Below, one piece after another: positions 49,066 to 60,365 of a DNA stretch of 64,000 nucleotides (position 1 is the stretch's first letter; the number at the start of each line of letters is the position of its first letter). Source of the DNA: Modestobacter altitudinis (lineage in GTDB: Bacteria > Actinomycetota > Actinomycetes > Mycobacteriales > Geodermatophilaceae); the NCBI RefSeq assembly GCF_005930475.1, contig NZ_SJEW01000001.1, forward strand, positions 62,001 to 126,000, written 5' to 3'. The notes under the pieces are model-generated. The model did no database searches. It was not told where the DNA came from and saw nothing but the letters and a program-made list of their open reading frames with translations. The translations under genes and the position numbers were made by a program.

Positions 49066-49150
49066 CTCGCAAGCGTAAGTCGTCCCCGGCAGCACCCGGC
49101 CGGGTCACGGGGGTGACGATCGTCGTCCCGGACGACACGCCGGGGCCGTT

Positions 49151-49188
49151 GTTACCGCGACGAAACACCGGAGACACCCCGGAGCAAC
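49151..49188 (+). promoter_or_regulatory. GlnR box upstream of glnA
   Basis: GTTAC-N6-GAAAC-N6-GACAC-N6-GCAAC: two consecutive a/b half-site pairs, all spacers six bases, matching the GlnR operator gTnAC-N6-GaAAC. The box ends 10 bp before TAACTT (49199-49204), a possible -10. Confidence 0.8.
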
Positions 49189-49238
49189 CCCCCGCTCGTA
49201 ACTTCTCCTCGAGCTGGCCGTCCATTCCCGGAGGATCG

Positions 49239-50672
49239 ATGTTCAACAGTCCCGACGAGGTCACCGCGTACATCCGCGACAACGACGTGAAGTTCGTCGA
49301 CGTCCGGTTCTGCGACCTGCCCGGCGTCATGCAGCACTTCACCATCCCGGCGGAGACCTTCGGCCCGGACACCTTCGCCGACGGCCTGGGCTTCGACGGT
49401 TCGTCGATCCGCGGCTTCCAGGCGATCAACGAGTCGGACATGCTGCTGCTGCCCGACGCGAGCAGCGCGTACCTGGACCCGTTCCGCATCCACAAGACGC
49501 TGAACATCAACTTCTTCATCCACGACCCGATCACGCGCGAGGCCTACAGCCGCGACCCGCGCAACGTGGCGAAGAAGGCCGAGGCCTACCTGGCCAGTTC
49601 CGGCATCGCCGACACCGCGTACTTCGGCCCGGAGGCCGAGTTCTACGTCTTCGACTCGGTGCGGCACAACACCGCGATCAACGAGGGCTACTACCACATC
49701 GACGCGGTCGAGGGCTCCTGGAACACCGGGTCGCTCACCGGTGAGAACGGCGGCCCCAACCTCGGGTACAAGACCCGGCCCAAGGGCGGCTACTTCCCGG
49801 TCGAGCCGATCGACCACCAGAGCGACCTGCGCTCGACGATGATGGTCAACCTGACCAACGCCGGGCTGGAGCTCGAGCGTGGCCACCACGAGGTGGGCAC
49901 CGGCGGCCAGGCCGAGATCAACTACAAGTTCGACACGCTGCTGCGCTCGGCGGACAGCCTGATGCTGTTCAAGTACATCATCAAGAACACCGCCTGGGCG
50001 CACGGCAAGAGCGCGACGTTCATGCCCAAGCCGCTCTTCGGTGACAACGGCTCGGGCATGCACTGCCACCAGAGCCTGTGGAAGGACGGCGAGCCGCTGT
50101 TCGCCGCCGAGACCGGCTACGCCGGCCTGTCGGACATGGCCCGGCACTACATCGGTGGCCTGCTCACGCATGCCCCCTCGCTGCTGGCCTTCACCAACCC
50201 GACGGTCAACAGCTACCACCGCCTGGTCCCGGGTTACGAGGCGCCGATCAACCTGGTCTACTCCGCGCGCAACCGCTCGGCGTGCACCCGCATCCCGATC
50301 TCGGGCGACAACCCGAAGGCCAAGCGCATCGAGTTCCGCGTGCCGGACCCCTCGGCGAACCCGTACCTGGCGTTCTCGGCGATGCTGATGGCCGGCCTCG
50401 ACGGCGTCCGCAACAAGATCGAGCCCCCGGCGCCGGTCGACAAGGACCTCTACGAGCTGCCGCCCGAGGAGGCGCTGGGCATCGAGAAGGTGCCCGCATC
50501 GCTGGACGCCGTCCTCGACCGGCTCGAGGTCGACCACGACTACCTGCTCGACGGTGGCGTGTTCACCTCCGACCTGATCGAGACCTGGATCGAGTACAAG
50601 CGGGCCAACGAGATCGACCCGATCCGGCTGCGCCCGCACCCGCACGAGTTCGCGATGTACTACGACATCTGA
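49239..50672 (+). CDS. glnA: Glutamine synthetase type I
   Basis: Ammonium assimilation enzyme, 477 residues, as GlnA1 of mycobacteria. [12 protein letters not shown], the ATP loop [30 protein letters not shown] and the adenylylation site Tyr405 ([11 protein letters not shown]) are present, so GlnE control is possible. ATG with GGAGG 5 nt upstream. Transcription is likely under GlnR through the upstream box. Confidence 0.97.
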
Positions 50673-50767: not shown

Positions 50768-52009
50768 TCAGCGACCGGTCGCCAACGCCGGCGCCTCGTC
50801 CGCCGGGGTCCGGGCGACCGGGACGGCCGGTGCCGGCCGGCTGGTCGCCGGTGCCTCGACCGGTGCCGGCCGCCCGAAGAACCACCCCTGCCCCAGGTCG
50901 ACGCCCAGGTCCCGGAGGACCACGGCCTCGGCGGCGGTCTCGACACCCTCCGCGACCACGGTGGCCCCGCCGCCGTGGCCGAACTCGACGAGGGAGCTCA
51001 CCAGCCTGGTGAGCACGGGGTCGGTGTCGACCCCGGAGACGATGCTGCGGTCCATCTTGAGCACGTCCGGTGCGGTGACGACGATGTGCCGCAGGGAGGA
51101 GAACCCGGCGCCGACGTCGTCGATGGCCAGCCGCATCCCGCGGGCGCGGAGCGGGGCCAGCGCCGCGGCCAGGGCGGCGTAGTCCTCCACCGGGTCGTGC
51201 TCGGACAGCTCGAGCAGCACCCGCTCCAGCGGCAACCGCTCCATGAGCGCGGCGAACTCGGGGAGCAGCAGCGTGGCGGGCGAGATGTTCATGGCCACGT
51301 AGCCCTCGACCGCGGTCAGGTGCTCAGCGGCCCGGCTCAGGGCGATCAGCTCCAGCTCGTGCCCCAGCCCCACGCTGTGCGCCTCGGCGAAGCACACGTC
51401 CGGCGCCTTGTCCCACGCTGCCGGGAACCGGCTCAACGCCTCGGACCCGACGCGGAGCCCGGTCCCCAGGTCCACGATGGGCTGCAGGACGACGACCGGT
51501 CCGCCGCCGGCGAGGACCGGCTCCAGGCGACCCACCAGCTCGCGCCGCCGCTCCTGCTCCCGCACGCCGGGCTCGATGATCACCGCGGCGGCCGACGCCA
51601 GGACGGTCATCAGCGACTTGTCGCGCTTGGTGAGCCCCTTGTCCGTGGTGAGCCCGGCGGCGCAGAAGGTGCCGTAGAGCTGGCCGTCGCTGAGCACGAC
51701 GGGGACCGACACGTAGCTGCGGATCCTCGGCAACCGGGCGGCGGGCAGCGCCATCGCCTGGGGGTGCTGCCGCACGTCGGGGATGACCGCCGGCAGGTCG
51801 CCGTCCAGGATGGCCTGGCAGAAGGAGGTCTCCTGACGCTGCTGGTTGCCCTCCTGGAACAGGAACGGCACGGAGGACTCGACGACCTCCAGGTGCTGCG
51901 TCGTGCCGTCCAGCCGGCTCAGGAAGGCCACGGACAGCTGCAGCGACTCCTTGGCCGTCCGCAGCAGCTCGGCGACCTGCTGGTCGGCGTCTGATCGTCT
52001 CCGCTTCAC
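50768..52009 (-). CDS. GAF-EAL c-di-GMP phosphodiesterase
   Basis: 413 residues. Residues about 1-150 form a GAF-like sensor; the EAL domain follows with SEALSRF (the signature Glu), NISP, ELSEHDP, DDVGAGFSS, KMDRS and VVAEGVE, GQGWFFGRP. All metal and substrate residues look present, so it should hydrolyse cyclic-di-GMP; GGDEF is absent. C-terminal Ala/Pro tail. GTG overlaps the stop of a 66-codon ORF. Confidence 0.9.
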   Translation of the reverse strand: MKRRRSDADQQVAELLRTAKESLQLSVAFLSRLDGTTQHLEVVESSVPFLFQEGNQQRQETSFCQAILDGDLPAVIPDVRQHPQAMALPAARLPRIRSYVSVPVVLSDGQLYGTFCAAGLTTDKGLTKRDKSLMTVLASAAAVIIEPGVREQERRRELVGRLEPVLAGGGPVVVLQPIVDLGTGLRVGSEALSRFPAAWDKAPDVCFAEAHSVGLGHELELIALSRAAEHLTAVEGYVAMNISPATLLLPEFAALMERLPLERVLLELSEHDPVEDYAALAAALAPLRARGMRLAIDDVGAGFSSLRHIVVTAPDVLKMDRSIVSGVDTDPVLTRLVSSLVEFGHGGGATVVAEGVETAAEAVVLRDLGVDLGQGWFFGRPAPVEAPATSRPAPAVPVARTPADEAPALATGR

Positions 52010-52373: not shown

Positions 52374-52661
52374 TCAGCCGCCGGCGCGGAAGCCCCGCTG
52401 CACCATGTCGTAGCTCGACAGCACCTCCAGCAGGAAGTCCGAGGCCGCGGCGGCGACCGCCGGGACCTCGTCCGCCGGGGTGTCCCGCAGGACGTCGATC
52501 AACACGAGGTGGTGCACCTGCACCAGCTCGAGCAGCCCGAGCTCGGCCTCCAGCCCGGCCCGGCCGATCTCGTAGCCGGCGTGCAGTGCCGCCTCCTCGT
52601 GCCGGGCCAGGTAGCGCAGGAACGCTGCCCGGTAGCTGCGGCGGACGCCGTCGTCGCTCAC
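52374..52661 (-). CDS. Stand-alone RsbU N-terminal (RsbT-binding) domain protein
   Basis: 95 residues, all helical: SYRAAFLRYLARHEEAALH...GYEIGR and the ending FLLEVLSSYDMVQRGFR match the RsbU N-terminal domain (PF08673-like) that binds RsbT. In RsbU it is followed by a PP2C phosphatase; here the gene stops after this domain and no phosphatase is nearby. GTG overlaps the rsbS stop (GTGA). Presumably an adaptor or decoy for the RsbT-like domain encoded first in the operon. Confidence 0.78.
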   Translation of the reverse strand: MSDDGVRRSYRAAFLRYLARHEEAALHAGYEIGRAGLEAELGLLELVQVHHLVLIDVLRDTPADEVPAVAAAASDFLLEVLSSYDMVQRGFRAGG

Positions 52662-53047
52662 CGCCGTCCGTCCGGGGATCCCGCCGTCCGGCCGTCCAGC
52701 AGGGCCAGCCCCTCCTCCAGGTCCAGTGCCGTCTCCACCACCCCGGTGCTCAGCCCCAGCCGGACCATCGCGATGGCGACCTCGGGCTGGATGCCCACGA
52801 TGACCGTCGCCGCGCCGCGCAGCCGCGCCATGTTGCCGATGTCGCGCAGCGTGCAGGTGGCGAAGGAGTCGAGCACGTCCAGGGCGGCGACGTCGATGAC
52901 CACCCCGCGCGCCCGGTCCCGGCCGATCGTGGCGATCAGGTCGTGCTGGAAGCGGACCAGCTGGGAGTCGTCGAGCGCGGTGTGGATCGAGGCGATCAGG
53001 CAGGTCCCCTGCCGCAGGATGGAGAAGAGCCGGGGCCCCGCGATCAT
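52658..53047 (-). CDS. rsbS: STAS-domain protein, RsbS-like
   Basis: 129 residues, single STAS domain like the stressosome scaffold RsbS. VVIDVAALDVLDSFATC contains Ser61 at the place of B. subtilis RsbS Ser59, the RsbT phosphorylation site. C-terminal tail polar. ATG overlaps the rsbR stop (ATGA) and its stop overlaps the next GTG. Confidence 0.9.
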   Translation of the reverse strand: MIAGPRLFSILRQGTCLIASIHTALDDSQLVRFQHDLIATIGRDRARGVVIDVAALDVLDSFATCTLRDIGNMARLRGAATVIVGIQPEVAIAMVRLGLSTGVVETALDLEEGLALLDGRTAGSPDGRR

Positions 53048-53961
53048 GGCCCGGCCGCCTCGCTGTCCCGCGTCACGATGAACCCCAGCAACCGCTCCGC
53101 CTCTTCCAGACCGCCCTGCAGGTCCCCGATGGTCTCCAGCCGGCTCAGGTCCACCCCGATGGTGACCAGCGTCTGGGCGATCTCCGGCGAGAGCCCGGTG
53201 ATGATCACGCTGGCCCCCATCAGCCGGGACGCGTCGACGGTCTGCACCAGGTGGTTGGCGACGGCCTCGTCGACGTCCGGCACCCCGGTGATGTCGATGA
53301 CGACGACCTTCGCCCGGTGCGCCCGGATCCCGGTGAGCAGCTGCTCGGTGAGCTGCCGGGCCCGCTCCCGGTCCAGCACCCCGATGATCGGCAGGATGAG
53401 CAGCCGCTCGCGGACCCGCAGCACCGGCGTGGACAGCTCCCGGATGGAGTCCTGCTGCTGCCGGATGACCCGTTCCCGCTCGTCGACGAAGCTGACCGCG
53501 ACGGTGTTGGCGATGCGGTTGGCAGCTGGCTCGTAGGCGTCCAGCACCCGGTTGAGCAGCGGCAGGTCGCGCTGGTACTTCTCGAACAGCGACCGGGCGA
53601 GCACGTCGCGCAGCAGCAGGACGATGCCGACGACCTCCTGCGTCTCCACCCCGCGCGGGATGATCCGCTCGGAGAGGTCCCGCGCGTAGTGCTGCAGCGC
53701 CTCGACGCTGCCGGTCTCGAGCACCTCGACGTAGTTGTCGTAGACCGACGTCGTCTCCGCCGCCATCTCCTGGCTGGTCATCGCCTGGAGCAGGTGCGCG
53801 GAGTGGATCCGGCCGACCCACTCCTGCCGCAGCCGGTTGCGGTGTTCCCGCAGGTGGGCCACCAGCTGGGGCAGGAGGCCGTCGTCGTCCCCCGGCGCAC
53901 CTCCCGGTGCCGCCCCGCCGACCTCGTCGTCCTCGGTGTCCTCGGTGTCCTCGGTGTTCAT
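53044..53961 (-). CDS. rsbR: Stressosome sensor protein, RsbR-like
   Basis: 305 residues. An acidic N-terminus built from a 9-bp tandem repeat (EDTEDTEDDE), a helical RsbR_N-type (globin-like) domain about 28-165 without obvious haem ligand certainty, a linker with LSTPV, and a C-terminal STAS domain whose DITGVPDVDEAV holds Thr225, matching the RsbR phosphosite Thr205. Scaffold and sensor of the stressosome. ATG overlaps the fusion gene stop. Confidence 0.9.
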   Translation of the reverse strand: MNTEDTEDTEDDEVGGAAPGGAPGDDDGLLPQLVAHLREHRNRLRQEWVGRIHSAHLLQAMTSQEMAAETTSVYDNYVEVLETGSVEALQHYARDLSERIIPRGVETQEVVGIVLLLRDVLARSLFEKYQRDLPLLNRVLDAYEPAANRIANTVAVSFVDERERVIRQQQDSIRELSTPVLRVRERLLILPIIGVLDRERARQLTEQLLTGIRAHRAKVVVIDITGVPDVDEAVANHLVQTVDASRLMGASVIITGLSPEIAQTLVTIGVDLSRLETIGDLQGGLEEAERLLGFIVTRDSEAAGP

Positions 53962-55037
53962 CGGTCCTCCCGCCACTTCGTCATCGTCACGGTGGTGCCA
54001 CGCCCCGGCTCGGAGGCCACGGCGAACTCGTCCATCAGCCGCCGGGCACCGGGCAGCCCCAGCCCCAGGCCGCGGTAGGTGCTGTAGCCGTCGCGCAGCG
54101 CCTCCTGCACGTCGGGGATGCCAGGCCCGGAGTCCCGCGCGGTGATCCGGATCCCCCGGCGCGGGGAGTCCAGCAGCTCCACCAGCACCTCGCCGGCATC
54201 GGCGAAGCGCACGATGTTGCGCACCACCTCCGAGACCGCCGTCGCGATCTCGGTCAGGTCGGTGGGCGGGAACCCGAGCCGGGCGGCCAGCTCGCGCGCC
54301 GCCTGCCGGGCCGCCACCACGTCCGCGTCGGCGCGGACGGCGACCCGCACCTCGTCGTCCCGGCTGCGTCCGCGCCCCATCAGCGGCTCGCTGAGCCGGG
54401 CGCACAGCTCGCACTCCAGCAGGTGCCGGGCCGCGTCGACCTCGCGCTGCCGCCGCCGGTCGCCGCTGGAGAGGGCCAGCAGCACCGGCCGGCACCGCGG
54501 GGTGGAGGGCTCGACCCGGTCGGCGGCGAGCAGGTACTCGACCCGCAGCCGGGCGCGGGTGCGGTTGAGCTGCGCGGCCACCGCACCCGCCGTGGAGCCC
54601 AGCTCGGCGGCGAGGGAGTGGGTGTCCTGCCCGGAGACCTCGTGCGCCAGCAGGGTGCTGCGCTCGCGCTCGGACAGCCGGGTCAGGGCCTCGGCCATCG
54701 CCGCCCGGTCCTCCTGGGCCAGCACGTCCTCGTCCGGCAGCTGCGGTGGGCGCAGGTCGACGACCCGGTGCTGGTGGCGCCGCTGCCGGTCCTGGTCCCG
54801 CCACATGGTGGCCACCACGTTCCGCGCGGTCACGATGGCGTACGGCTCGACCATGCCCGGCTCGATCCGCTCGACGGCCGCGAGCACCCGGGCCAGCGTC
54901 TCCTGCACCAGGTCGTCGGCGGTCGCCCGGTCGGGCACGCGCGCGGCGACGATGCGGCGGACGATCGGGATCAGCGCCGCGACGTCCAGGGGGCCGCGGG
55001 GCTCCGGGGAGGAGTCGGCGGGTGCCGGGGCCGGCAT
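53958..55037 (-). CDS. ECF-like sigma factor fused to zinc motif and RsbT-type kinase
   Basis: 359 residues in three parts. 18-95: sigma region 2 (DDLVQETLARVL 41-52; PYAIVTARNVVATMWRDQ 66-82). 110-170: sigma region 4 (ALTRLSERERSTLL with HTH to 165). 182-212: Cys182, His205, Cys209, Cys212 in an anti-sigma-like H-x3-C-x2-C pattern. 228-357: RsbT-like GHKL ATPase, N-box Glu270/Asn274, DSGPGIPD 302-309, GLGLGLPGARRL 324-334, final MTKW. First gene of an operon with rsbR, rsbS and an RsbU N-domain, each overlapping by 4 bp; canonical rsbT normally follows rsbS. ATG 55037 set by TAGCGT (complement 55045-55050) 7 nt upstream. Confidence 0.88.
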   Translation of the reverse strand: MPAPAPADSSPEPRGPLDVAALIPIVRRIVAARVPDRATADDLVQETLARVLAAVERIEPGMVEPYAIVTARNVVATMWRDQDRQRRHQHRVVDLRPPQLPDEDVLAQEDRAAMAEALTRLSERERSTLLAHEVSGQDTHSLAAELGSTAGAVAAQLNRTRARLRVEYLLAADRVEPSTPRCRPVLLALSSGDRRRQREVDAARHLLECELCARLSEPLMGRGRSRDDEVRVAVRADADVVAARQAARELAARLGFPPTDLTEIATAVSEVVRNIVRFADAGEVLVELLDSPRRGIRITARDSGPGIPDVQEALRDGYSTYRGLGLGLPGARRLMDEFAVASEPGRGTTVTMTKWREDR

Positions 55038-55128
55038 GCCGGGCACGCTACCGCCGTCCCGGCGATCCGCACCTCCTGCGTCGACCCGCCGCACGGCGGT
55101 CAGCGGTGTCCTCCCGGGGCGCGGCGAC

Positions 55129-55565: not shown

Positions 55566-55769
55566 TCAACAGCAGCGGCTGATCGGGGTGCGCTCGACGG
55601 CGTCGGCCCGGCGCCGCTCGAACTCCCGCCGGGTCAGCGGCTCGTGCCCGTGCTCGGCGCACTCCCGCAGGTGGTCGTCCCAGCGGGCCTCGCCGCTCCA
55701 CTCACGCAGGTACCACCGCACCCCGCGCCCGGCCCGGACGAGGGCCGCCCGCACGTCCCCGGCGGTCAC
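55566..55769 (-). CDS. YbdD/YjiX family small protein
   Basis: 67 residues with WYLREWSGEARWDDHL, HGHEPLTRREFERRR and terminal CC, the YbdD/YjiX pattern. Members accompany CstA-type carriers and are needed for pyruvate or peptide uptake in enterobacteria. GTG overlaps the cstA stop (GTGA). Confidence 0.9.
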   Translation of the reverse strand: MTAGDVRAALVRAGRGVRWYLREWSGEARWDDHLRECAEHGHEPLTRREFERRRADAVERTPISRCC

Positions 55770-57991
55770 GGCCGACCGCCGTCCCGGCTCCCGGCACCCG
55801 AGCCGACCAGGCGGTCGTGCTCGGCCAGGGCGCGCTTCTCCTCGGCCGTGGCCCACAGGCCGGCCGGTTCCACGAGCTCCGACGGCGTGGGCGGTTCCTC
55901 CGTCGTCGGCAGGCCACCGGCCCGGATCGCCCGGGCGATGACGAACACGGCGTTGGCGACGACCACCAGCACCAGCACGGCGAAGAAGCTCTGCAGGATG
56001 CCGTTGAGGGTGGAGTTGAAGATGACCTGGTCCATCTGCCCCTGGTCCTGCGCCGGTGCCAGCAGCTCACCGGCGTCCTGCGCGTCCCGGTACCGCTGGG
56101 CCTGCGCGAAGTAGCCGATCGCCGGGACGTCGGAGAAGACCTTCTGCCAGCTCGCGGTCATGGTGACGACGAGGTCCCAGACCAGCGGCACGCCGGTCAC
56201 CCAGGCGTAGCGCAGCTTGCCGTGCTTGATCAGGAGCACCGTCACCAGGGTCAGCGCGATGGCAGCGAGCAGCTGGTTGGCGATCCCGAACAGCGGGAAC
56301 AGCTGGTTCACACCACCCAGCGGGTCGGTCACCCCGATGTAGAGGACCGAGCCCCACAGCCCGACGACGATGGCGCTGGCGATGACGTTGGCGGGCCGCC
56401 AGGACAGGTCGCCGAAGCGCTTCCAGACGTTGCCGATCGAGTCCTGCAGCATGAACCGGCCCACCCGGGTGCCGGCGTCGACGGCGGTCAGGATGAACAG
56501 CGCCTCGAACATGATCGCGAAGTGGTACCAGAACGCCTGGAGCCCGCCACCGAACGCGTCGCTGAAGATCTGCGAGATGCCGATGGCGAGCGTGGGGGCG
56601 CCGCCGGTGCGCGAGATCAGGGTCGGTTCCTGGACGGCGGCCGCGGCGGCGGCGAGGTCCTGCGCGCTGGTGTCGAACCCGAGCCCCTGCACGAAGGTGG
56701 CAGCCGTGTCGACCGCGCCGCCGGTGGCCCCGGCCGGGCTGTTCATCGCGAAGTAGAGCCCCTGGTCGATGACGCAGGCGGCGATCAGCGCGCTGATGGC
56801 CACGAACGACTCCATCAGCATGCCGCCGTAGCCGATGAGCCGGACCTGGCTCTCCTTGGCCACCATCTTCGGCGTCGTGCCCGAGGAGATCAGCGCGTGG
56901 AAGCCGGACAGGGCGCCGCAGGCGATGGTGATGAAGACGAAGGGGAACAGCTGGCCGGCGAAGACCGGACCGGTGCCCTCCCGGGCGAAGTCGGTGACGG
57001 CCTGGGCCTGCAGCACGGGGCGGGAGATCAGCAGCCCGAGCGCGAGCAGGACGATGACGCCGACCTTCATGAACGTCGACAGGTAGTCGCGCGGGGTGAG
57101 CAGCAGCCAGACGGGCAGCACCGAGGCGACGAACCCGTAGACGACGAGCGCGAGGACCAGCCACTCCTTGGACAGCGTCAGTGCGTCGCCCAGCCCGGTG
57201 TCCTGGATCCAGCCACCGCCGACGATCGCCAGCAGCAGCAGCGCGACGCCGATGCCGGTGGCCTCCAGCACCCTGCCGGGTCGGAGCCGGCGCAGGTAGA
57301 GGCCCATGAACAGCGCGATCGGGATGGTCAGCGCGATGGAGAAGACCCCCCACGGCGACTCGGCCAGCGCGTTGACCACGATCAGCGCGAGCACCGCGAG
57401 GATGATGATCATGATCGCGAAGACGGCGATCAGCGCGGCGACGCCGCCGACGACGCCGATCTCCTCGCGGACCATCTGACCGAGGCTCTTGCCGTTGCGG
57501 CGCATCGAGAAGAACAGCACCGTCAGGTCCTGGACGGCGCCGGCGAAGATGACGCCGACGACGATCCAGATGGTCCCCGGCAGGTAGCCCATCTGCGCGG
57601 CGAGCACCGGCCCGACCAGCGGCCCGGCGCCGGCGATGGCGGCGAAGTGGTGACCGAAGAGCACCCGCCGGTCGGTGACGTCGTAGTCGACGCCGTTGTG
57701 CAGCCGCTCGGCCGGGGTGGCGCGACGGTCGTCGGTGCCGAGCACCCGGTAGGTGAGGAACCGCGCGTAGAAGCGGTAGGCGATCGCGTACGAGCAGAGC
57801 GCCGCGAACAGGATCCACAGTGCGGAGATCGACTCGCCGCGGGCCAGCGCCAGCACCGTCCAGGCGACCGCACCCACCGCTGCCACCGCGACCCAGATGG
57901 CCACCGAGCGCACCGACGAGCGGCGTCCGGCTGCCCCGCCCGGCGGCTGCCCGCCGCCGCTCGCGTCGTCCCTGGTCGCCGTCGTGGACAT
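55766..57991 (-). CDS. cstA: Carbon starvation protein CstA-type transporter
   Basis: 741 residues, about 16-18 membrane helices. Family segments: FYARFLTYRVLGTDDRRATPAERLHNGVDY (positions 66-95, abbreviated), the HHFAAIAGAGPLVGPVLAAQ motif, GTTPKMVAKESQ and GGVNQLFPLFGIANQLLAAI. Likely imports pyruvate or peptides. ATG has GGAGG 5 nt upstream; operon with ybdD. Confidence 0.94.
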   Translation of the reverse strand: MSTTATRDDASGGGQPPGGAAGRRSSVRSVAIWVAVAAVGAVAWTVLALARGESISALWILFAALCSYAIAYRFYARFLTYRVLGTDDRRATPAERLHNGVDYDVTDRRVLFGHHFAAIAGAGPLVGPVLAAQMGYLPGTIWIVVGVIFAGAVQDLTVLFFSMRRNGKSLGQMVREEIGVVGGVAALIAVFAIMIIILAVLALIVVNALAESPWGVFSIALTIPIALFMGLYLRRLRPGRVLEATGIGVALLLLAIVGGGWIQDTGLGDALTLSKEWLVLALVVYGFVASVLPVWLLLTPRDYLSTFMKVGVIVLLALGLLISRPVLQAQAVTDFAREGTGPVFAGQLFPFVFITIACGALSGFHALISSGTTPKMVAKESQVRLIGYGGMLMESFVAISALIAACVIDQGLYFAMNSPAGATGGAVDTAATFVQGLGFDTSAQDLAAAAAAVQEPTLISRTGGAPTLAIGISQIFSDAFGGGLQAFWYHFAIMFEALFILTAVDAGTRVGRFMLQDSIGNVWKRFGDLSWRPANVIASAIVVGLWGSVLYIGVTDPLGGVNQLFPLFGIANQLLAAIALTLVTVLLIKHGKLRYAWVTGVPLVWDLVVTMTASWQKVFSDVPAIGYFAQAQRYRDAQDAGELLAPAQDQGQMDQVIFNSTLNGILQSFFAVLVLVVVANAVFVIARAIRAGGLPTTEEPPTPSELVEPAGLWATAEEKRALAEHDRLVGSGAGSRDGGRP

Positions 57992-58102
57992 GAGCGCCTC
58001 CGAGCACCGCGGCGTCATCGTCGACGCCGTCCGCGCAGAGCATAAGGTCCGGGACCGAGCCGGGCGGGACCTCGGTCCCCAGTGCGCCTGGCTGCTGCGG
58101 GC

Positions 58103-60280
58103 TCAGCGGATGAACAGCATCTCCTGGTAGGTCGGCAGCGGCCACAGGTCGTCGGCGACGACGTCCTCGAGCTCGTCCGCGGCGGCCCGGACGGCAGCCA
58201 TCGCCGGGAGCAGCGCGTCCTGCGCGCGCTGCGCCTCCTCCAGCGCCGATCCCCCCGCGTCACCGGCCAACGCCGTCCGCAGGGTGACCAGTGCGCCGCG
58301 GAGCTCAGCCAGCGGCGCGCTGATCTCGGCCAGCACCGACAGGTCGGGGTCCACCCCGGCCGCCTTGAGCGCGCCGAGGTTCTGCGCGACCTCGGTCTGG
58401 TGCCGGACAGCGGCCGGCAGCACCGACGTCGTCCCGATCTCGAGGGTCAGCCGGGCCTCCACCCCGACGCTGAGCGCGTAGTGCTCCAGGCCGATCTCGT
58501 AGCGGCTGTGCATCTCCCGGTGGCTGAACACCTGGTAGCGGCTGAACAGCTCCATCGCCGAGTCGGTGATCAGCTCCGGCAGCGCGTCCAGGGTGGTGCG
58601 CAGGTTGGGCAGCCGGCGTGCCGCGGCCTCGACCTGCCAGTCCTCGGAGTAGCCGTCGCCGTTGAAGACGACCGCGCCGTGGTCGGTGATGACCTCTTCG
58701 AGCAGCTTCTGGACGGCGGTGTTGAACTCCGCGCCGTCGGCGACCGCCGACTCCAGCTGCGTGGCGATGTGGTCCAGCGCCTCGGCCATGATGGTGTTGA
58801 GCGTGACCATCGGGCCGGCCACCGACTGCATCGAACCGGGCGCGCGGAACTCGAACCGGTTGCCGGTGAAGGCGAAGGGGCTGGTCCGGTTGCGGTCACC
58901 CGGGTCGGTCGGGAGCACCGGCAGGGTGTCGACGCCGATCGTCAAGGTCCCCTTCTCCTTCGACGACGTCGCCCCGCCCTTGGCCACCTGGTCGAAGACG
59001 TCGGCCAGCTGGTCGCCCAGGAAGATCGAGATGATCGCCGGCGGCGCCTCGTTCGCGCCGAGCCGGTGGTCGTTGCTGGCGGAGGCGACCGAGGCGCGGA
59101 GCAGCCCGCCGTACTTGTGCACCGCGCGGATCACCGCGGCGCAGAAGACGAGGAACTGGGCGTTCTCGTGCGGGGTGTCGCCCGGCAGCAGCAGGTTCCC
59201 CTCGGTGGCATTGCCCAGGGAGAAGTTGACGTGCTTGCCCGAGCCGTTGATGCCCTCGAACGGCTTCTCGTGGAAGAGACACTCCATGCCGTGCTTGCGC
59301 GCTGTCCGCTTGAACGTCGTCATCAGCAGCTGCTGGTGGTCGGCCGCGACGTTGCCCCGCTCGAACATCGGAGCGATCTCGAACTGGCCTGGCGCGACCT
59401 CGTTGTGCCGGGTCTTGGCCGGGATGCCGAGTTTGAACAGCTCCCGCTCGGTGTCCATCATGAAACCCAGCACCCGCTCGGGGATGGCCCCGAAGTAGTG
59501 GTCGTCGAACTCCTGACCCTTGGGCGGCTTGGTGCCGAACAGGGTGCGCCCGGCGTTGAGCAGGTCCGGCCGGCCGAGGAAGAAGTGCCGGTCGACCAGG
59601 AAGTACTCCTGCTCGGGGCCGCAGTAGGAGACCACCGCGTCCGGGGTGGCGTGCCCGAACAGCCGGAGCACCCGTTCGGCGTGCTTGGCCATCGACTGCT
59701 GGGACCGGAGCAGCGGCGTCTTGTGGTCGAGCGCGTCACCGTTCATCGAGACGAAGACGGTGGGGATGCACAGCGTGTTGCCGTTGGGGCTCTCCAGCAC
59801 GTACGCCGGGCTGGTCACGTCCCAGCCGGTGTAGCCGCGCGCCTCGAAGGTGTTCCGCAGCCCGCCGCTGGGAAAGCTCGAGGCGTCCGGCTCTCCCTGG
59901 GTGAGGGTCTTGCCGGCGAACTCGGCCAGCGCCGAACCGTCCCCGGCCGGTTCGAGAAAGCTGTCGTGCTTCTCGGCGGTCAGCCCGGTGAGCGGGTAGA
60001 AGACGTGCGCGTAGTGCGTCGCCCCCTTCTCCATCGCCCAGTCCTTCATCGCCGAGGCGACGGCGTCGGCGACCAGCGGGTCCAGCGGCGCGGCGTGGTC
60101 GATCGTCGCCAGGACGGACGTGTAGACCGACTTGGGCAGCCGCTTCTGCATCACCGCCTTGCTGAACACGTTCGCGCCGAACACCTCGCCCGGCGTCTCC
60201 CCCGCGGTGAAGCTGACGGCCGGGGGCACGTGGGCCTCGACGTCCTTGATGGCCTGCAGACGGACGGCGTTCCCGCTCAC
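58103..60280 (-). CDS. glnN: Glutamine synthetase type III
   Basis: 725 residues, the size of GSIII (GlnN). [42 protein letters not shown] and [15 protein letters not shown] are typical. GSIII lacks the adenylylation loop, so it would escape GlnE control. GTG 60280 with GAGGGAG 5 nt upstream; TAGGTT (60339-60344) is a plausible -10 and a GlnR-like half-box lies just upstream. A second ammonium-assimilation enzyme beside GlnA. Confidence 0.95.
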
Positions 60281-60365
60281 GGGAGCTCCCTCGGGACGGC
60301 GGTGCATGCCCGGGAACCGGACGGAACCCGATGCCGCGAACCTAGGAAGGGCACGCACCAGTGGT

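Follow-up and report, generated by a model that had tools for sequence, protein, structure and literature searches.

A sigma factor joined to an RsbT-type ATPase in a conserved stressosome gene block of Modestobacter altitudinis

The window analysed here, a stretch of 64,000 nucleotides from Modestobacter altitudinis (contig NZ_SJEW01000001.1, positions 62,001 to 126,000), encodes a 359-residue protein in which an ECF-type sigma factor is followed, in a single uninterrupted frame, by an RsbT-type ATPase. The gene stands at the head of a block that also encodes an RsbR, an RsbS and a free-standing RsbU_N domain. Known stressosomes reach a sigma factor by way of a released kinase, a phosphatase, an anti-anti-sigma factor and an anti-sigma factor. 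By analogy with these systems, and with moderate confidence, we propose a one-step stressosome in which the RsbR/RsbS cage would retain the sigma factor through the attached RsbT domain, and phosphorylation of RsbS Ser61 would free it to act directly.

Organization of the four-gene block

The four genes are transcribed leftwards in the order fusion, RsbR, RsbS and RsbU_N. The features of the block are as follows.

55045..55051 (-): GTAGCGT, a -10-like element 14 nt upstream of the fusion ATG, consistent with a leaderless transcript
53958..55037 (-): sigma-RsbT fusion, 359 aa; uninterrupted frame, Pfam and NCBIfam matches, orthologues
54771..54983 (-): sigma region 2, fusion residues 19-89; Pfam and AlphaFold2 helices
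54522..54737 (-): sigma region 4, fusion residues 101-172; Pfam and AlphaFold2 helices
54402..54494 (-): C182-x22-H205-x3-C209-x2-C212 segment; putatively zinc-binding, by motif only; invariant in orthologues
53967..54362 (-): RsbT-type ATPase, fusion residues 226-357; Pfam, comparison with stand-alone RsbTs, AlphaFold2, Foldseek
53044..53961 (-): RsbR-like protein, predicted globin-like sensor fold and STAS domain; 4-nt overlap with the fusion
53266..53268 (-): codon of RsbR Glu232, aligned with Listeria RsbR Thr209
52658..53047 (-): RsbS-like STAS protein; 4-nt overlap with RsbR
52865..52867 (-): codon of RsbS Ser61, the aligned phospho-acceptor
52374..52661 (-): free-standing RsbU_N domain, 95 aa, GTG start; 4-nt overlap with RsbS

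Of the 31 orthologous loci, 29 have the whole block (including L031, in which the fusion frame is broken), and contig ends cut it in L024 and L016; it is also present in all four further fusion loci examined (L123, L124, L131 and L132). When the neighbours of eight loci were compared, no other frame was common to more than seven loci, once frames overlapping the block itself or the additional RsbS of L029 are set aside, and the block is therefore regarded as a self-contained module in varying surroundings. The linkage of the fusion to RsbR and RsbS in the original prediction is borne out by their adjoining genes, in the window and across the orthologous loci. The free-standing RsbU_N, the absence of an RsbX-type phosphatase from the block and a set of related sigma-zinc-membrane proteins (see below) had been overlooked.

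A GAF-EAL protein (50768-52009, (-)) follows the block in the window; L001 and L002 alone among the 31 loci showed a close relative of it. A second RsbS-like protein, ~65% identical, lies near the block at L029:10333-10872 and L018:343-990; in L029 it is followed by a frame that by eye resembles an RsbV-type STAS protein. The neighbours at 49113-50672 (+), 55766-58018 (-) and 58103-60358 (-) are presumably a glutamine synthetase, a CstA-type carbon-starvation protein and a type III glutamine synthetase, respectively.

Of 32 loci, 25 carry the pattern GTAnnnT at -15 to -13 relative to the fusion start; apart from a single occurrence at -8, it is absent from the rest of the 9408 upstream positions. 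It is also frequent 6-8 nt before the ATG or GTG of long frames in the window and in L001-L031, which points to widespread leaderless transcripts. Because the same spacing precedes other open frames in these loci, we read the element as a general leaderless promoter, which supports the chosen ATG, and reject it as a fusion-specific ECF autoregulated promoter; no ECF-type autoregulated promoter was seen upstream of the fusion.

Domain structure of the fusion protein

The original prediction of one 359-residue protein with ECF-like sigma regions 2 and 4 and an RsbT-like ATPase, in that order, is confirmed by the frame and by profile searches. The N-terminal half scores as a sigma factor, matching Pfam Sigma70_r2 (3.4e-12, residues 21-84) and the NCBIfam sigma70-ECF model TIGR02937 (1.7e-19, above its cut-off). 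Sigma70_r4_2 matches residues 113-164 at 1.6e-5 with 24.9 bits, just below the 25.7 cut-off, when the whole fusion is scanned, and scores 26.1 bits, above the cut-off, when residues 1-177 are scanned alone. Pfam lists no match to sigma region 3, and with regions 2 and 4 matched this is the ECF layout. The C-terminal half matches HATPase_c_2 (1.5e-17, residues 238-354) and is a GHKL ATPase close to the RsbTs of RST operons, with its catalytic residues kept. Residues R244, R248, R273 and D302 are retained in 31/31 orthologues, and E270 and N274 are invariant in a 30-row alignment. Unlike RsbT as defined, this part is not a single-domain protein and sits behind a sigma factor.

The Cys and His residues of the zinc-binding pattern noted earlier (C182, H205, C209 and C212) are invariant among the fusion orthologues; no Pfam or NCBIfam model matches the segment up to E 10, so zinc binding is a prediction from the motif. 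Its H-x3-C-x2-C portion is the motif of the ZAS (zinc anti-sigma) domain.

An AlphaFold2 model built from 30 aligned fusions (mean pLDDT 83, pTM 0.57) places sigma region 2 helices at residues 19-89, a low-confidence linker at 90-99, sigma region 4 at 101-172, a short helical zinc-motif segment at 182-220 and the ATPase at 229-355; at this pTM the relative placing of the domains is unreliable. Foldseek matches of the model include SpoIIAB (2.1e-7), mycobacterial SigE (9.3e-6) and RsbW (6.5e-5), and also histidine kinases.

RsbS and RsbR

Two stressosome hallmarks are present in the block: an RsbR with an N-terminal sensor and a STAS domain, and an RsbS STAS protein with an acceptor serine. Ser61 of RsbS, originally proposed as a phospho-acceptor, is invariant (31/31) and aligns with the DSF-motif serine of the Listeria and B. 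subtilis proteins. Thr225 of RsbR, proposed alongside it as a release switch, is the threonine of a DITG motif and not the aligned phosphosite. The latter falls at position 232, using the Listeria RsbR Thr209 numbering given in PMC9237128.

Position 232 is Glu in 26 of the 31 loci, Gln in three, and Ala and Gly in one each, and it is Val in L101 and L102. At this second site (Listeria Thr209, B. subtilis T205) Ser or Thr thus occurs in 0/33 fusion systems, versus Ser in 18/22 stand-alone systems, the rest of which have Gln, Leu, Lys or Glu (Fisher p 5e-11, a value overstated by the treatment of related rows as independent). The first site (B. subtilis T171) is Ser or Thr in 18/31 rows and Arg in the window. 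In B. subtilis, phosphorylation of T171 is described as a prerequisite for that of S59, and phosphorylation of T205 as limiting (PMC7522486). Because RsbR here lacks a second-site Ser/Thr and the window protein has Arg at the first, activation must differ in part from that of B. subtilis. A fixed Glu at position 232 could act as a standing brake, a role that the Gln, Ala, Gly and Val forms do not fit. Since the T209A variant of Listeria RsbR gave higher SigB-dependent transcription without stress (PMC9237128), the Ala, Gly and Val forms might be leaky.

For the RsbR model (mean pLDDT 84, pTM 0.59), matches were obtained to full-length Listeria RsbR at 5.6e-14 and, at a weak 9.0e-4, to the globin sensor of AfGcHK; the N-terminal part is predicted to have a globin-like sensor fold.

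Proposed release of the sigma factor

In the mechanism that we propose, RsbR and RsbS would build the usual cage, and the fusion would dock on it through its RsbT domain, so that the sigma factor would be stored and kept from RNA polymerase. Stress sensed by the globin-like part of RsbR would cause the RsbT domain to phosphorylate RsbS Ser61, upon which the fusion would leave the cage; docking and release are both modelled on known RsbRST behaviour. The free RsbU_N would then take the RsbT face normally used by RsbU and keep the fusion off the cage. The released sigma part would itself direct transcription, making the RsbU phosphatase, RsbV and RsbW steps unnecessary. The least supported parts of the proposal are that the zinc segment may hold the sigma part inactive and that RsbU_N may help rather than restrain. 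In published stressosomes, RsbT is set free by phosphorylation of RsbS and goes on to bind RsbU (PMC7522486 and PMC12143880).

The window genome (99.5% complete, 161 contigs) encodes one RsbR, one RsbS and one RsbU_N. A profile of the RsbT part detects no second RsbT in it at 1e-30, in line with the earlier claim that the fusion is the kinase; the same profile finds stand-alone RsbTs at 1e-43 to 1e-56. HATPase_c_2 is matched 33 times in the genome; these many ATPases could be anti-sigma factors or kinases, and a divergent second RsbT may be among them. With one RsbR, one RsbS and no second close RsbT, the RsbT that RsbR and RsbS hold, if they hold one, is most likely the sigma factor. The original view, in which the kinase in the cage and the sigma factor are one protein, is what we infer as the most economical reading.

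Relatives of the ATPase

The main rival reverses this logic: the ATPase would act on the sigma part of the same protein as an in-built anti-sigma clamp, in the manner of SpoIIAB or RsbW, and unphosphorylated RsbS or RsbR would peel it off, so that the cage-bound form would be active and phosphorylation would switch it off. SpoIIAB binds both a sigma factor and a STAS protein, and it is the best relative of the ATPase among solved structures (2.8e-10; Foldseek 2.1e-7), with no solved RsbT among the matches. The ATPase is, however, ~50-64% identical to the stand-alone RsbTs of RsbR-RsbS-RsbT operons (L088-L097 and L110-L122) versus ~30% to SpoIIAB, and the sigma part is of the ECF type, whereas SpoIIAB and RsbW bind SigF/SigB-type sigma factors. 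We consider an in-built anti-sigma factor unlikely.

RsbR and RsbS adjoin 22 of the 23 stand-alone RsbTs, L119 showing neither. An RsbX-like phosphatase frame, recognized by eye and by place, lies downstream in nine of ten stand-alone loci inspected (L088, L091, L093, L094, L097, L110, L111, L114 and L120). In L116, a stand-alone RsbRST locus, the next frame by eye resembles a GAF and PP2C phosphatase, not RsbX. Three long frames with an RsbT match from Streptomyces-size genomes (L128-L130) were considered as further fusions and discarded; they look like ordinary RsbTs that follow RsbR and RsbS. A tree was built from 55 RsbT domains, and a single branch in it separates the 32 fusions from the rest (92/92; recovered in 90% of 200 bootstrap trees), consistent with the fusion having arisen once.

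The free-standing RsbU_N domain

The sole Pfam match of the 95-residue protein is RsbU_N (PF08673, 1.4e-17); unlike the RsbU phosphatase it has no PP2C domain by Pfam, and in fusion loci RsbU_N is always without an output domain. In stand-alone systems, all five proteins scanned with Pfam carry RsbU_N together with a PAS, HD, histidine kinase, GGDEF or GAF domain (L088, L110, L112, L114 and L120, the RsbU_N match of L112 being below its cut-off). As judged from aligned residues, numbered according to PMC12143880, the RsbT-RsbU interface is partly but not fully kept. On the RsbU side, E24 (E23 in the numbering of RsbU_N itself) is retained in 30/30 free RsbU_N domains, the position of Y28 is variable, I74 is replaced by Leu, Val, Thr or Met, and I78 by Ala or Ser. 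On the RsbT side, mapped with the B. subtilis sequence, R19 and R23 correspond to fusion R244 and R248 (31/31), and the contact residue N24 to fusion Glu249 (Asp in two).

The constant lack of an output domain and the conserved part of this interface (RsbU_N E23, R244 and R248) also agree with a different role, in which the free RsbU_N, as an anti-sigma partner, would hold the fusion inactive after it leaves the cage until a second signal arrives. We know of no case in which RsbU_N inhibits RsbT, however, and no partner for a second signal turned up in the four-gene block. Moreover, RsbT binding activates RsbU in B. subtilis (PMC12143880), and such a restraining RsbU_N appears quite unlikely.

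The sigma part and its relatives

A further possibility is that the sigma part, like that of PhyR, mimics a sigma factor or serves as an adaptor, binding an anti-sigma factor or RNA polymerase without starting transcription. The fusion does have a weak Pfam match to PhyR_sigma2 (0.0011), but both sigma regions match true ECF models far better, and region 4, helix-turn-helix included, belongs to the best-conserved parts of the fusion; a mimic is very improbable.

The sigma and zinc part is 45-60% identical to a group of proteins (L103-L109) with a hydrophobic, transmembrane-like stretch, seen by eye, and a further domain in place of RsbT. The C-x22-H-x3-C-x2-C motif occurs in all nine of these sigma-zinc-membrane proteins (L086, L087 and L103-L109) and is absent from four outgroup sigma stretches. 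By eye, the further C-terminal domain carries a [DN]-E-[GA]-F-W motif in 9/9; a Pfam scan of L103, L106 and L109 returned sigma regions only. In a tree of the sigma parts, two switches between the fusion type and the membrane type are required; with its very long outgroup branches, this tree does not settle the order of origin.

Distribution and integrity of the fusion

Scanning the genome contigs with the fusion yielded 80 loci. L001-L031 are orthologues (68-96% identity); in L032-L080 the match is confined to the sigma or the ATPase part. The frame is complete and unbroken in 29 of the 31 orthologous loci, and unbroken up to the contig end in L024. In L031:8001-9022 the fusion frame is in three pieces, with RsbR, RsbS and RsbU_N present; L125:1788-2875 is on the same contig and is not a second broken case. 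The hosts are Modestobacter, Geodermatophilus, Blastococcus, Trujillonella, Cellulomonas, Terrabacter, Janibacter and Segeticoccus, together with MAGs labelled Nocardioidaceae, Nocardioides, Propionibacteriaceae and Modestobacter.

The survey of actinobacterial genomes thus recovers the same fusion outside the window. Within the window's family 31 of 112 genomes match it at 1e-30: 29 at full length (2.5e-189 or better), many of them the same species as L001-L031, one in two pieces (G410, the L031 contig) and one partially (G463). The same search gave no match in at least 16 genomes of the window's own genus. Four full-length fusions were found in a class sample of 394 genomes (1e-40) and four in a phylum sample of 396 (1e-30), with G000 (the window genome) and G048 common to both. 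The fusions of L101 and L102, 58-60% identical to that of the window, come from outside its class.

Median dN/dS is 0.22 for sigma region 2, 0.19 for sigma region 4, 0.13 for the zinc segment and 0.23 for RsbT, after removal of saturated pairs (at most 51 of the 435 for any domain); all domains are under purifying selection. Despite the broken frame of L031, the chance that a sequencing error joined two adjacent genes, a concern raised with the original prediction, is negligible given the complete frames in 29/31 loci and many assemblies and the purifying selection on every domain.

Resetting of RsbS

At 1e-10 an RsbX profile finds no RsbX of the stand-alone type in the 112 genomes of the window's family; as a control it recovers RsbX in 6/6 genomes at 2.7e-70 or better, one of which (G066) supplied a sequence to the profile. 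Among six fusion genomes examined, G048, G211, G008 and G691 give nothing at 1e-5, and in G000 (three matches, 3.5e-8 at best) and G749 (6.0e-13) the profile matches only inside frames of 480-598 aa. Another phosphatase could serve for RsbS dephosphorylation.

Relationship to known systems

The block resembles the RsbRST(X)-RsbU-RsbV-RsbW-SigB systems of Bacillus and Listeria and the mycobacterial RsbRST in its globin-like RsbR sensor with a STAS domain, the DSF serine of RsbS, the RsbT-type ATPase and RsbU_N. It differs in that RsbT stands behind a sigma factor, RsbU_N lacks an enzyme, the block has no RsbX, and RsbR is without the second phospho-acceptor. RST modules with RsbU_N outputs (the five above, and those in print from Vibrio and Moorella) share the RsbR-RsbS-RsbT core, with RsbTs ~50-64% identical, but carry the output on RsbU_N, whereas here it is on RsbT itself. 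Rv1364c of Mycobacterium tuberculosis, a larger regulator of fused partner-switch domains that includes an RsbW-like ATPase and is not known to contain a sigma factor, gives a weak match (0.0092). The sigma-zinc-membrane proteins share the sigma part and the Cys/His motif and have their membrane-like stretch and further domain where the fusion has RsbT; they may be comparable to ECF48, ECF52 and ECF53 (PMC8999054).

The tables of PMC8999054 name no RsbT or HATPase extension among ECFs. PMC9237108 describes many outputs behind RSTX modules, and no sigma factor is among the domains named in the passages covered here. ECF54, with a listed member from Geodermatophilus amargosae, was rejected as a match, since it is reported from the neighbourhood of carboxypeptidase, subtilase and CHAT genes (PMC8999054). 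No description of a sigma-RsbT fusion was found in the titles and abstracts searched, and a numbered group of the main ECF classification (Casas-Pastor 2021) may already contain these fusions.

Our fuller picture is a tentative one. The cage would store the sigma factor and release it active; with the RsbR damping site mostly a phospho-mimic Glu and no RsbX, there would be no classical reset; the orphan RsbU_N would receive the freed sigma factor; and the fusion would have a single origin, with RsbT replacing the membrane part of a sigma-zinc-membrane protein. The chain from stressosome to sigma factor seems to have been collapsed into one protein, and in certain soil actinobacteria stress may switch genes on in one step. 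If this is true, the block would be a clean system for the effect of cage release alone, and for the contributions of RsbU_N and of the second RsbR phosphosite, and the fusion would represent a new kind of regulatory extension for ECF sigma factors.
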